NCBI GenBank assembly: GCA_019307945.1
Contig: JAFDIS010000012.1
Location: 1-64,000, forward strand
DNA from: Deltaproteobacteria bacterium
GTDB lineage: Bacteria; Desulfobacterota; DSM-4660; Desulfatiglandales; Desulfatiglandaceae
DNA: 64,000 nt
Reading direction: 5' to 3'
How positions within the stretch are numbered: the stretch's first letter is position 1; each line of letters begins with the position of its first letter. Positions 22,977 through 41,386 of the stretch are shown here, piece after piece. The notes under the pieces were generated by a model. The model saw only the letters and a list, made by a program, of their open reading frames with translations. It made no database searches and had not been told where the DNA came from. The position numbers and the translations under genes are program-made.

Positions 22977-23227
22977 TGCAAATCTTTTGATTTTTCCCAT
23001 GGTTTTCCGACCCGCCCCCGCAAACGCGCCAGGGATATTCCACGTTTGTTTCAGCAACAGCCGTGACGCACCAGCGCTGAAGAGGCGCCGGGGGCCTGAA
23101 GGAGGCGGCAGCAGGCCGGCGCACATTGCACCGACGGCCGTGGGCAGTGGCCGCCTTCGCCATCGGCATCCTGGTGCGCGATGGGGCTTGCGGGTGATAG
23201 GCCTGGGGGAAAAGGAGCGTGTTTGAA

Positions 23228-23812
23228 ATGTCGGATGATAGAGAAAACTTTATTGATGCGTTGCTGAAGAAGAAGGAAGACACGGAAACAGCCTTGAGGC
23301 GCCTGCTCGAAGCTCAAAAGGAATCCACGAGCCAGATGTCCGAAGACCTGCTTTCCGATGAGTTCGACTCGGCTCAGAGGGAGGTGGCCGTTCAGGCCCA
23401 GTACCGGCTTATCGAGAAAAAGACGGAGGAACTGAAACGCATCGACCGATTGATACTGCAGGTGCGTCGGGACGAGGATTTCGGGATTTGCGAGGAATGC
23501 GGAGAACCCATTCCCCCTGCCAGGTTGTTGATCGTCCCGGATTCCACGCTGTGCGTAACCTGCCAGCAGGAGGCCGAAAAGGTCCACAGGGCCAGGAGCG
23601 TGTCTCTTCAGGCACCCTCCCTCCCGGGCCGAAAACAGTGGGAGTGGGAGCAGGATGCCGATTCCGGTCTCCCCGATCTCGAGGACGATTCGCTGGGAGA
23701 CGGTCTGGAGATTTTCGAGTTTGAGGAAGACTCACAAGGGGGTCCAAGCGGCATGATATCCGGAATTTACGGCGACACGGGCGGCGAGGACACCAGGGCA
23801 TCCGCCATGTGA
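23228..23812 (+). CDS. TraR/DksA-type zinc-finger protein
   Basis: 194 aa from ATG 23228, with GGAG 10 nt upstream; the in-frame GTG at 23219 is too close to that site. An N-terminal coiled coil (DALLKKKEDTETALRRLLEA onward) is followed by the C4 zinc finger CEECGEP...CVTCQQEAEK near residues 85-110. DksA-family proteins bind RNA polymerase in its secondary channel and tune transcription with ppGpp. This one is longer than usual, with an acidic tail of about 75 residues (SGLPDLEDDSLGDGLEIFEF) of unknown role. It is monocistronic as far as can be seen. Confidence 0.85.
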   Translation: MSDDRENFIDALLKKKEDTETALRRLLEAQKESTSQMSEDLLSDEFDSAQREVAVQAQYRLIEKKTEELKRIDRLILQVRRDEDFGICEECGEPIPPARLLIVPDSTLCVTCQQEAEKVHRARSVSLQAPSLPGRKQWEWEQDADSGLPDLEDDSLGDGLEIFEFEEDSQGGPSGMISGIYGDTGGEDTRASAM

Positions 23813-23904: not shown

Positions 23905-25311
23905 GTGACGGAACTTTACTACCGTACTTGTACGGAACTGGTGGATCTCATCCGATCGGGAGAGCTTTCCCCCGTTGACCTGATGGAAGAAACTTTGAGG
24001 CGCATCGAGGCCGTGAACCCAAAGGTCAATGCCTTTGTGGCCCTGAGGCCCGAGGAGGCCCTGGCCGAGGCCCGGGAGGTGGCAAAACGCCTCGCCTCCG
24101 GTGACCCGGTGGGACCCCTCGCCGGAATCCCCCTGGGTGTCAAGGACCTGGAGGACGTGGCGGGCATGGTGACCAGTTTCGGCTCCGTGCCGTTCCGGGA
24201 TCATGTGGCGCAGACCGATTCCGTGCAGGTGGCGCGGCTCAAGGCGGCCGGTGCCGTGGTGGTGGGAAAAACGAACACACCTGAATTCGGTTTCACCGGG
24301 TTTACCAAGAATCGCGTCTACGGCACGACCCGGAACCCATGGAACCTGGAACGCACGCCCGGGGGCTCCAGCGGCGGCGCGGGTGCGGCCGTAGCGGCCG
24401 GAATGGTGCCCCTGGCCACGGGGTCCGATGCCGGTGGATCCATTCGGATCCCCGCCTCCTACTGCGGCTGTTTGGGGCTGAAGCCCTCATACGGGCGCAT
24501 CCCCATGGGGCCGGGCCCCATCCTGCACATGGCGGGAACCGCCGTTTACGGGCCTCTGTGCCGGAACGTGGAAGACGCGGCACTCTATCTGGACGTGGCG
24601 GCCGGATACCATCCGGCCGATCCCCATTCCCTCCCGGGCCCGGGCATCTCTTACAGGGAGGCCCTTTCCGCCCCCCTCCCCTCCCTGAAGATCGGATTCA
24701 GCCCCACCCTGGGCTATGCGAGGGTCCAGAAGGATGTGCTGCGTGTCGTGGAGGACGCGGCGGGGGCTTTCAGCCGCATGGGACATCGGGTCGAAGAGTG
24801 GGAGGGCGGTTTGCCCGACGTGAGTGATGCCTGGGCCCGCTGGATGAGCCTGGAGGTCTACGCTCAGGTCCATGAAAAATATGAACGGATACGTCCCGAG
24901 ATGGGAAGAACCCTTGCGGCATCCATCGACGAGGTCAGAGGCATGAGCGTGGATGATCAGGTCCTCTACCAGCGACTGCGAAGCGACCTGAACCGGGCGC
25001 TATGGGATTTCTTTGACCGTTTCGACCTGATGTTGACCCCCACAATGCCCACAGAGGCCTTCGGCGCCAAGGGTCCTCCGCCCTCCGAAATCGACGGAAT
25101 GCCCGTGCCCATCATGGGGGCCGTAGCCTTCACGTATCCTTTCAACTTCTCCGGACACCCCGCGGCCACGGTGCGGGCCGGCCTCACGGACTCCGGGCTC
25201 CCGGCGGGGCTACAGATCATTGGGCCGCGGCACCGGGATGACCTGGTCCTTCAGGCGGCACGGGCCTTTGAGCTGAAAAGACCCTGGAACCATCACTGGC
25301 CCCCCTGTTGA
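23905..25311 (+). CDS. Amidase signature family hydrolase
   Basis: 468 aa, GTG start with GAGGAGG 8 nt upstream. The Ser-cisSer-Lys machinery is complete: the lysine in [12 protein letters not shown] (near residue 82), the amidase signature [16 protein letters not shown], and [16 protein letters not shown] with the nucleophile serine. It hydrolyses a carboxamide. The family includes GatA, indoleacetamide and other amidases; no GatB or GatC neighbour is present, so a GatA role is unlikely here and the substrate is unknown. A strong terminator follows. Confidence 0.9.
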
Positions 25312-25332: not shown

Positions 25333-25358
25333 GATTTTTCCGCAGGAGCGGAAAAAAT
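25333..25358 (+). terminator. Rho-independent terminator after the amidase
   Basis: GATTTTTCCGC-agga-GCGGAAAAAATC: an A/T-extended perfect stem with a 4-nt loop, 22 nt after the amidase stop; usable in both directions. Confidence 0.85.
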
Positions 25359-25461
25359 CTCCTGAATGTCTACCGGCCTTGCGTACGCGTCCAGGGGAGG
25401 AATCGAACTTAACATATTGAAAAACTTAGGATTAAATGCAAATCCCTCAGCCCAGGCTGAA

Positions 25462-25478
25462 TTGGCACGAGTGTTGCT
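25462..25478 (+). promoter_or_regulatory. Sigma-54 promoter of the short unit at 25.5-25.86 kb
   Basis: TTGGCACGAGTGTTGCT matches the sigma-54 consensus TGGCAC-N5-TTGC exactly, with GG and GC 12 bp apart. The start of transcription would be near 25490, about 130 nt before the small reading frame at 25623. Upstream, 25380-25460 is AT-rich and could hold activator and IHF sites. Confidence 0.82.
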
Positions 25479-25622
25479 TTAAGAATACCGGAAGGGAAGG
25501 CTCCTGAGATGACGGGGCTTTCGTTGATCAAGGCATGACGGGTCTGCAGCCATTGGGTCGCCCCCTGCCGGGGTGGCGAGGGCCGTTTCAATATCGCTGC
25601 GGCCCGAAGAGATACGGTGGTA

Positions 25623-25811
25623 ATGATGCCTGCCAAGAGAAGTGGACAAAACGAACAACACGCCCCACGGCTCGACATCGAGGAGGTCCTGCAATCCTTC
25701 CGGGACATTGACCGGAAAATCGAGGCGTTCGTGGGAGAACGGAGCCCGCGTGGCCTTGACGGCCGGGAACCTGGCACCAGCGTCTCCCGCAGCAGACGAC
25801 CCAAAACCTAA
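25623..25811 (+). CDS. Small unknown protein (62 aa) or part of a regulatory RNA
   Basis: 62 aa from ATG 25623 (second ATG at 25626). The centre is a probable amphipathic helix (LDIEEVLQSFRDIDRKIEAF) and the tail is basic and arginine/serine-rich. The ribosome site is weak, so coding status is uncertain. What supports a real unit is its frame: a consensus sigma-54 promoter upstream and two hairpins with a T-run immediately downstream. The 130-nt leader also holds two ATGACGGG..CT starts (25508 and 25535) opening short peptides. It is not recognised. It could be a sigma-54-dependent small RNA. Confidence 0.4.
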   Translation: MMPAKRSGQNEQHAPRLDIEEVLQSFRDIDRKIEAFVGERSPRGLDGREPGTSVSRSRRPKT

Positions 25812-25824
25812 TGCAGGAATGAAT

Positions 25825-25863
25825 GGGGAGGTTTCCTCCCCTTACCGCCCGGGCGGCCTTTTT
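25825..25863 (+). terminator. Double hairpin terminator of the sigma-54 unit
   Basis: GGGGAGG-ttt-CCTCCCC (25825-25841) is followed by CCGCCCGGGCGG (25845-25856) and CCTTTTT (25857-25863). It ends transcription just after the 62-aa frame. Confidence 0.75.
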
Positions 25864-26078: not shown

Positions 26079-27344
26079 TTGGAATTTTCGACCATCAAAG
26101 GATTCAAGGATATCCTGCCCGAGGAGGTGGGCCCGTGGCAACGCCTGGAGCAAACGGCCCGCCACGTATTTCACTGCTTCGGATACCGGGAGATCAAAAC
26201 GCCCCTGCTGGAACGCACGGAACTGTTCAGCCGAAGCATCGGGGAAGAGACCGACATCGTCTCAAAGGAGATGTATACCTTTCATGACAGCAAGGGACGC
26301 GGCATGACCCTACGCCCCGAGGCTACCGCCTCCCTGACCAGGGCCTATATCCAGAACCGGCTCTACCACCAGAGCCCTGTCCAGAAACTCTTCACCATCG
26401 GGCCCATGTTTCGGCACGAACAGCCGCAGAAGGGCAGGTTCAGGCAGTTTCACCAGATCGATGCGGAGATCTTCGGGGATCCAGGGCCCATGAGCGATGC
26501 TGAACTGATCCTGATGGCCATGGAAATCCTGCGCCTGCTGGATCTTGAAGGGCTCACCCTGGCCGTGAATTCCCTGGGCTGCCCGGAGTGCAGGCCCGGA
26601 TTTCGTTCCGAACTCTCAAAGTTCCTGGCTCAAAAGACCGGAGCCCTTTGTGACAATTGCACGAGACGGGCCCGGACCAATCCACTGCGGATCTTCGATT
26701 GCAAGGTGCCCGCATGCGGCCAAGCGGTGGCCGGGGCACCGTCCGTCCTCGATTTCTGCTGCGAGGCATGCCGCGCCCATTTCAAGGGCCTCCAGGGCTA
26801 TCTGGAAGAAGCTCAAATCCCGTTCCGCGTGGACCACAGGCTCGTGCGCGGACTAGACTATTACACCAGGACGGCGTTCGAGATCCAGACGGACCTCCTG
26901 GGCGCACAAAACGCCGTGGTGGGAGGCGGCCGCTACGATCAACTCACGCAACAGTTGGGAGGCCCGGACCTGCCCGCCATAGGCTTTGCCATGGGCATGG
27001 AGCGCGTCGTGGCCCTGATGGAAAGAAGGGGCGAGGCCATGCCCGAGAGACCTGATCTCTTCATCTGCGCCCTGGGGACTGAGGCCGGCAAGGCCGCCTT
27101 TGTCTGGATGACCGACCTGAGGAGATCAGGGTTCTGGGTGGAAATGGATTACTCCGGCAAGGGTCTCAAGGCCCAGATGAAGCGTGCTCACCGCCTGGGG
27201 GCCCGAAGAGCGCTCATCGTGGGCGAGGACGAACTCGCCGCAGGAAAGGCGGTCCTGCGTGACATGGACAACAAACGCCAGGAAGAGGTGGCCCTCGAAG
27301 GACTGACCTCCCACCTGCAGCAGGCCTTGAGGCAAAATGACTGA
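26079..27344 (+). CDS. hisS: Histidyl-tRNA synthetase
   Basis: 421 aa from TTG 26079; no ATG or GTG precedes the conserved N-terminus (FSTIKGFKDILPEEVGPW) in this frame. Class II motif 2 is in LYHQSPVQKLFTIGPMFRHE, the histidine-specific LVRGLDYYTRTAFEIQ lies near 250-265, and AVVGGGRYDQL and AIGFAMGMERV form motif 3. A cysteine-rich insert near residues 170-230 (CPEC, CDNC, CKVPACG, CCEAC) probably binds zinc. It charges tRNA-His. It overlaps aspS by 8 nt, so the two form an operon. Confidence 0.95.
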   Translation: MEFSTIKGFKDILPEEVGPWQRLEQTARHVFHCFGYREIKTPLLERTELFSRSIGEETDIVSKEMYTFHDSKGRGMTLRPEATASLTRAYIQNRLYHQSPVQKLFTIGPMFRHEQPQKGRFRQFHQIDAEIFGDPGPMSDAELILMAMEILRLLDLEGLTLAVNSLGCPECRPGFRSELSKFLAQKTGALCDNCTRRARTNPLRIFDCKVPACGQAVAGAPSVLDFCCEACRAHFKGLQGYLEEAQIPFRVDHRLVRGLDYYTRTAFEIQTDLLGAQNAVVGGGRYDQLTQQLGGPDLPAIGFAMGMERVVALMERRGEAMPERPDLFICALGTEAGKAAFVWMTDLRRSGFWVEMDYSGKGLKAQMKRAHRLGARRALIVGEDELAAGKAVLRDMDNKRQEEVALEGLTSHLQQALRQND

Positions 27345-35190: not shown

Positions 35191-35206
35191 TGGCATCGAT
35201 TTTGCA
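35191..35206 (+). promoter_or_regulatory. Sigma-54 promoter of the PilZ gene
   Basis: TGGCATcgattTTGCAT: TGGCAT, 5-bp spacer, TTGCA, with GG and GC 12 bp apart. The expected start is about 70 nt before the PilZ start codon. Confidence 0.75.
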
Positions 35207-35282
35207 TTATCAGTCTTGAGGACGCAGTCCTCCGATGGGGAGGGGTGGGAGTGGGCCGGCCCCACAGCAATCATTCGACAGG

Positions 35283-39994: not shown

Positions 39995-41386
39995 TCACCC
40001 GGCGTACTGGGAGCGCTCCAGGCCCTGTTTCTTGATCTTTTCCACGAGGGTGGTTCGGTTCATGTTCAGCAGTTTGGCCGCACGGTTTTTCACCCACCCG
40101 GTCTTTTCCAGGGCGCTTAGGATCAGTCGCTTTTCATATTCGTTGACCGCGTGGCTCAGAGAAAAGCCCTCGTCCGGGATGGCCGTCTGAATCACCTGGC
40201 TCACCGCACCCTTTCTCGCAATCTTCTCCGGGAGATCCTCCACAGTGATCTGATCCCCCTCGCACAGGATGACCATCCGCTCGATGATGTTTTCCAGTTC
40301 CCGTACGTTTCCCGGCCAGTCATACCGCTCCAGGGCGCTCATGACCTCTTTGGAGATCCCTTTGACCCCTTTCTTCTTGACCCTTATCATCTTTGACAGG
40401 AAATGATTCACCAACAGGGGAATGTCCCCCGACCTATCCTTGAGGGGTGGCAGTTGGATCGGAATGACCTTCAGCCGGTAGTAGAGATCCTCTCTGAAGG
40501 AACCATCCTCTACGGCCCGGTCCAGGTCTTTGTTTGTGGCTGCCAGAATCCTCACGTCGCACTTGATGGTCCGGGTCCCGCCCAGCCGTTCGAACTCCTG
40601 TTCCTGCAGGACACGAAGCAGCTTGATTTGAAGCTGGGGGCTCATCTCCCCCACCTCATCCAGAAAAATGGTCCCTCCTTTAGCCATCTCGAATCGTCCG
40701 ATACGGGTCTTGATGGCGTGGGTAAAGGCCCCTTTTTCATGTCCGAAAAGCTCGCTCTCGAGCAACTCTCCAGGAATGGCGCCGCAGTTGACGGGGATCA
40801 GGGGCTTGTCCTTTCTTGTGCTGTTGTAATGAATCGCCCGGGCCACCAATTCTTTGCCCGTCCCCGAGGCACCCAGGATCAGGACGGTACTGTCGGTGTC
40901 CGCAACCTTCTCGATGATCCTGAACACCTTCCGCATCTGGGGGCTGTCCCCGATAAAATTCTTGAACTTGTATTTTTCCTTTAACTGCCGTTTAAGGGCA
41001 TAATTCTCCCGTCTGAGTGCCCGGAGCTCCATGGCGCGCCGGATGACCAGGGCGACCTCTTCCATCTTCACGGGCTTGGAGAGATAATCGTAGGCTCCCG
41101 CCTTCATGGCCTCCACGGCGTTTCGGATGCTCGCGTATCCCGTGAGGATGATGCCCACCGCCTCGGGGTCTCTGTCCACGAGGTGTTTGAGCACCGCCAT
41201 GCCGTCCACCTTGGGCATGTTCATGTCAATAAGGGTGACATCGAAGACGTCCTCGTCGAGCATACGCTGGGCCACTTCGCCGTCCGATGCCGTGGCCACC
41301 TCGAAACCTTCCGTCGTCAAGAATTCCGAGAAAGCGTCCCGCACCTTCTCCTCGTCATCCACCACCAAGATTCTGCCTTCGCTCAC
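39995..41386 (-). CDS. Sigma-54-dependent response regulator (NtrC/FlrC type)
   Basis: 463 aa, GTG start with GGAGG 10 nt upstream. The receiver domain (1-120) has the acidic pocket VVDDEE, the phosphorylated aspartate in VTLIDMNMP and the lysine in YLSKPVK. The AAA+ domain has Walker [16 protein letters not shown] and [15 protein letters not shown]. The sigma-54-contacting loop reads GAFTHA, not GAFTGA. Walker B is [14 protein letters not shown]-terminal Fis-type helix-turn-helix follows ([20 protein letters not shown]). Its place at the end of the flagellar operon and the sigma-54 promoters nearby make it the likely flagellar class II/III activator. No cognate kinase is in the window. Confidence 0.9.

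Follow-up and report, generated by a model that had tools for sequence, protein, structure and literature searches.

What is made from a short stretch of DNA that carries a sigma-54 promoter of its own and lies between an amidase gene and hisS in a member of the Desulfatiglandaceae? A first-pass annotation of the window, i.e. the whole stretch of 64,000 nucleotides that was analysed (assembly GCA_019307945.1, contig JAFDIS010000012.1, positions 1 to 64,000), had left the choice between a small RNA and a small protein. Our analysis reveals a genuine sigma-54 gene for a microprotein, restricted to one lineage. The gene is probably monocistronic and sigma-54-dependent and encodes about 61 residues, and its product would use its helix to dock on a partner. 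The relevant features of the window are the following:

23219-23812: gene for a DksA/TraR-type zinc-finger protein (PF01258); a similar gene is found close to the microprotein gene in genomes G005 and G018
25333-25359, no strand: inverted repeat with T/A runs 3' of the amidase gene, from the sequence
25462-25477, plus strand: sigma-54 core promoter TTGGCAC-N5-TTGC, from the exact sequence, the chance count and like elements at other loci
25489-25625, plus strand: putative 5' leader of about 137 nt, from promoter geometry
25626-25811, plus strand: microprotein gene, 61 amino acids (62 codons with the stop), from the ATG at 25626 and homologue profiles
25677-25739, plus strand: single predicted helix, codons 18-38, within the conserved core (LDIEEVLQSFRDIDRKIEAFV), from an AlphaFold model and the alignment
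25825-25863, plus strand: two hairpins and TTTTT, a likely intrinsic terminator, from the sequence and a comparison with random stretches
39995-41386, minus strand: NtrC-type response regulator (receiver, sigma-54 interaction domain, Fis helix-turn-helix), a candidate activator, from domain matches

The promoter, a leader of 130 nt, a 62-codon frame with a weak ribosome site, two hairpins with a T-run and the position between an amidase terminator and hisS had all been called in the first-pass annotation, and these calls agree with what we find. The -24/-12 core promoter, read directly from the sequence as TTGGCAC-GAGTG-TTGC, has an exact GG at -24 and an exact GC at -12 with the correct spacing. 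The window contains two exact copies of TGGCAC-N5-TTGC versus 0.07 expected by chance, of which the second is located at position 149 within a long frame. With one mismatch allowed, four copies are present versus 4.0 expected, and thus there is no enrichment. A sequence with one mismatch to this motif (TGGCATCGATTTTGC, 35191-35205) is located shortly upstream of the frame at 35235, whose product we take, from reading the sequence, to be of the PilZ/YcgR type. Placing +1 12 nt past the -12 C of the microprotein promoter would put the transcription start at about 25489. The frame could also start at 25617 (GTG) or 25623 (ATG). Upstream, the amidase frame stops at 25311 and the inverted repeat that follows is likely a terminator insulating the microprotein unit; downstream, hisS starts at 26079. 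The distal end of the unit is formed by hairpin 1 (25825-25841, GGGGAGG-TTT-CCTCCCC), hairpin 2 (25845-25856, CCGC-CCGG-GCGG), which has just four pairs, and the T-run at 25859-25863. In one scan, these hairpins together with the T-run were stronger than 300 of 300 random stretches, and they were absent from the list of a simpler terminator scan. Scanning the homologous loci described below, with the truncated G066 left out, yielded a strong terminator in the source genome G000 and one at G067a, and most others had none.

Several searches were made for relatives of the microprotein. Searching the genomes of the same taxonomic family with the window protein alone gave weak matches, among them a short protein of G036 that has this helix and is preceded by a stretch resembling the promoter element. 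Several other weak matches of this first search were rejected as coiled or antisense. A two-row profile added G066, and G005 at an E value of 0.058, the latter being visible in hisS neighbourhoods as well. Finally, a nine-row profile yielded 13 loci, nine of which were already rows of that profile, with E values per genome from 1e-26 to 9e-4. These loci, all of which encode short proteins built around one conserved helix, are distributed over 12 of 46 genomes and 5 of 23 genera of the family, and the profile search did not find the gene in the other 34 genomes. L083, L086 and FliT-like proteins were set aside as non-members, and a weak, truncated candidate in G035 (L092, E 0.036) is outside all counts. 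Among 39 other genomes of the order, no match was counted as a member. When up to 15 candidates per genome were scored in 395 genomes of the phylum, G000 itself was the sole pass at E 0.001, and no second carrier was present among the genomes listed. No match was obtained in a first protein search of a general contig collection, and hmmsearch found no microprotein at 53 hisS loci from this collection (L099-L151), some of which are short. Moreover, the window protein matched neither Pfam nor NCBIfam, and a literature search retrieved no paper describing such a microprotein. Judged by Pfam, NCBIfam, Rfam and the literature search, the family is new, though of a known kind.

The gene neighbourhood is partly shared. 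A dksA-like gene, the amidase gene and/or hisS surround the microprotein gene in three genera (G000, G005 and G018). In G000 and G005, the microprotein gene is located upstream of hisS with the dksA-like gene further upstream, and G018 keeps the order dksA-like gene, amidase gene, microprotein gene, with hisS following some 7 kb on. An amidase gene precedes the microprotein gene in G000, G018 and G063. At the g12 loci, the microprotein gene adjoins a divergent polA-like gene, and at the g5 loci it follows another gene; both neighbours were judged by reading the sequence and not by a family search. Thus, the differences between genera indicate that the microprotein gene is a separate unit that occurs in varying places.

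The promoter also recurs in modified form. Judged by the best score within 200 nt upstream relative to about 20,000 random stretches, using our own weighting of the sigma-54 consensus, a -24/-12-like element precedes 12 of the 13 loci (four clear, six variant, two marginal, one none) or, leaving aside the window locus, 11 of 12 (three clear, six variant, two marginal). The clear elements are those of G000, G005, G018 and G033, with fractions of random stretches of 0.0013, 0.0035, 0.0061 and 0.023, respectively, the last with 95 nt available. The six g12 loci have the variant TCGCAC or CTGCAC-N5-TTGC (0.009-0.048), which disrupts the GG at -24, and the two g5 loci have a weak TGGTAT-N5-TTTC (0.053), which disrupts the GC at -12. 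G063 lacks a promoter-like element upstream (score 8.4; 0.71 versus random stretches). For the recurrence of the element in the four other genera, Fisher's combination of one genome per genus (the lowest handle), excluding the discovery locus, gave p 1.3e-5. The window promoter is further supported because like elements recur upstream of the homologues. The cognate sigma factor RpoN is encoded in G000 (PF04552, E 2.9e-63) and in 11 of the 12 genomes carrying the microprotein gene; it was not found in G033, whose genome is 82% complete. In three g12 genomes, rpoN and the microprotein gene share a contig, about 18-30 kb apart (G029:C158, G011:C329 and G067:C151; L049, L050 and L082). By eye, a common AT-rich, GATAT...TATAT-like stretch is seen 40-60 nt before the element at the g12 loci L049, L046, L050, L081, L082 and L091, which is possibly an activator or IHF site.

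The activator that would drive the unit had been suggested to be one such as that encoded at 39995. However, no evidence was found that links the 39995 activator to the microprotein promoter. In excerpts of two papers on Desulfovibrio vulgaris, the flagellar regulators DVU1063 and DVU2894 are assigned the site GGCA-N4-TGCC and the predicted site yGTCA-N6-TGACr, respectively (PMC3333781; PMC4641369). The DVU1063-type site has no match within the window, and the DVU2894-type site is absent near the microprotein promoter, a near-match being located at 25229 inside the amidase gene. Neither an FlbD-like dyad nor an exact FlrA-like dyad is present near the window promoter. A dyad scan across 12 microprotein loci, with G063 left out, revealed none that is convincingly common, and an FlbD-like dyad was found in G005 only.

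Whether the unit codes for a protein can be judged from its relatives, for which the first-pass annotation had proposed weighing conserved codons against conserved structure. The comparison favours the codons: the protein core is similar across the five genera, and the nucleotide sequence is not conserved. Over the first 36 codons, dN/dS is 0.07 (G067a/b), 0.10 (G029/G069), 0.22 (G068/G067a) and 0.28 (G011/G067b) in four more diverged pairs; in three close pairs, it is 0.16 (5 changes), 0.60 and 1.56, values that are not low or come from few changes. Two pairs show a bias of changes towards third positions (p 0.004 and 0.04), and no such bias is present in the three close pairs. Moreover, Shine-Dalgarno-like stretches precede several homologue starts (AGGAGG in G018 and G063, AAAGGAG in G005). 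On these sequence comparisons, the product is much better read as a protein than as a small RNA, and the protein half of the first-pass alternative stands as a self-contained sigma-54 unit, with a -24/-12-like element at most homologues and RpoN in the genome. In the RNA half, the unit would give a small regulatory RNA from its sigma-54 promoter, comparable to those that sigma-54 activators control in D. vulgaris, whose sigma-54 regulome includes four non-coding RNAs according to an excerpt of PMC4641369, and the frame would be incidental. This fits the long leader and the weak ribosome site of the window gene, but a nucleotide search of 61 genomes matched nothing beyond the source genome itself, whereas homologous proteins are found in five genera; shuffled versions of the RNA fold equally well (z -0.40), and Rfam gave no match. 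The leader length is not conserved either, the start codon being 38-78 nt past the -12 C in the homologues and up to 148 nt past it overall. We thus consider a small RNA very unlikely. A decaying remnant or a chance open frame behind a leftover or chance promoter is more improbable still: the patchy distribution, the freely changing protein tails and the imperfect elements of several relatives would suit it, but not a core conserved in five genera, a neighbourhood common to three, and dN/dS below 0.3 in the four diverged pairs.

The microprotein would act through its helix. In the AlphaFold model, one helix spans residues 18-38 (block means 74-89), the rest being of low confidence with loose ends. 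This helix is similar to helix three of a FliT-like orphan protein (hhalign E 5.3e-6, score 35.5; the reversed control scored 16.3, and none of 60 column shuffles exceeded 13.0). The match covers 36 columns of one coiled helix, and a generic coiled helix could account for it. The orphan is encoded at 13 loci of the order (L152-L164, e.g. L159:1501-1911, L160:1501-1902 and L161:1501-1899), where its gene stands alone, with a rhomboid-like gene and a divergent AMIN-like gene next to it. It matches the Pfam FliT family weakly and below the cut-off (E 6e-6 to 2e-3), and its predicted model has three helices. No PDB entry matched this model at E 0.001, FliT (3a7m_B, TM 0.64/0.74) being at rank 13. 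Strong sigma-54 elements precede the orphan at 10 of its 13 loci, and GTCA-N6-TGAC occurs near 5 of 10 examined loci versus 1.1% of random 300-nt stretches. A dyad of this type has been predicted for a FlrA/FleQ-like regulator, as excerpts of the D. vulgaris papers indicate (PMC4641369; PMC3333781).

The microprotein could accordingly belong to the flagellar programme, with expression controlled by a flagellar sigma-54 activator and a FliT-like helix that binds a chaperone of the FliT family or competes for it. The profile match with its much lower controls, the strong sigma-54 elements of the orphan itself and the flagellar genes that occupy much of the window from 41 to 64 kb, as read from translations, point in this direction. 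However, the match is restricted to one coiled helix, and other coiled proteins, including a winged-helix-like one (named by reading), match the microprotein profile as well (E 3e-4 and 1.3e-3). True FliT scored just 17 against this profile, which is no match, and PF05400 (FliT) matched neither the window protein nor the three homologues scanned (L005, L049 and L040). Just 3 of the 12 carriers were found to encode the orphan, and 8 have the flagellin N-domain versus 18 of 34 other genomes (Fisher p 0.51); G029 and G011, which are 97% and 95% complete, have the gene without this domain. An FlrA-like dyad was seen at none of the 12 microprotein loci scanned. Thus, with no true FliT match, few orphans, flagellin unlinked and other coiled matches, we favour a mechanism in which one helix binds a partner, and we regard a flagellar role as an unlikely rival. 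A bolder variant is more doubtful than this: the family would consist of sigma-54-induced decoys, each a single helix left from the truncation of a FliT-like chaperone and made on demand. Such decoys would occupy the docking surface of chaperones or activators in the cell-exterior programme, as a bacterial counterpart of the dominant-negative microproteins of plants.

For helix-partner docking, the mechanism that we prefer, we envisage that an enhancer-binding activator would respond to a signal and that RpoN polymerase would transcribe the unit. The transcript of about 375 nt would terminate at the hairpins and the T-run and would be translated to a microprotein with one amphipathic helix (residues 18-38) and loose, fast-changing ends. 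Judged by the shape of this helix, the microprotein would most likely act by docking on a partner protein, as an adaptor, a small chaperone or a competitor.

The unit resembles the short sigma-54 units of D. vulgaris in having a -24/-12 promoter, a transcription unit of its own and a short product, and the source genome likewise encodes RpoN and NtrC-type activators; however, in the excerpts of the source papers, the D. vulgaris units are non-coding RNAs and several are named for an adjacent activator gene, whereas the window unit is protein-coding and has no activator gene beside it (PMC4641369; PMC3333781). With the FliT family (PF05400) and the FliT-like orphan, the microprotein may share one helix with a pattern like EIxEVIxSIxDxDKRxEELxxEK, and with the orphan it has upstream sigma-54 elements in common. 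The FliT family forms a helical bundle, and the orphan has three helices, about 137 residues and a C-terminal tail that is conserved; in contrast, just one helix is predicted for the microprotein, and no such tail is present. A promoter call made on raw sequence has led to a family of microproteins that had not been described, encoded by uncultured relatives among the deltaproteobacteria. If it is true that the helix docks on a FliT-like chaperone, the microprotein would be a new means of tuning the sigma-54-dependent cell-exterior programme.
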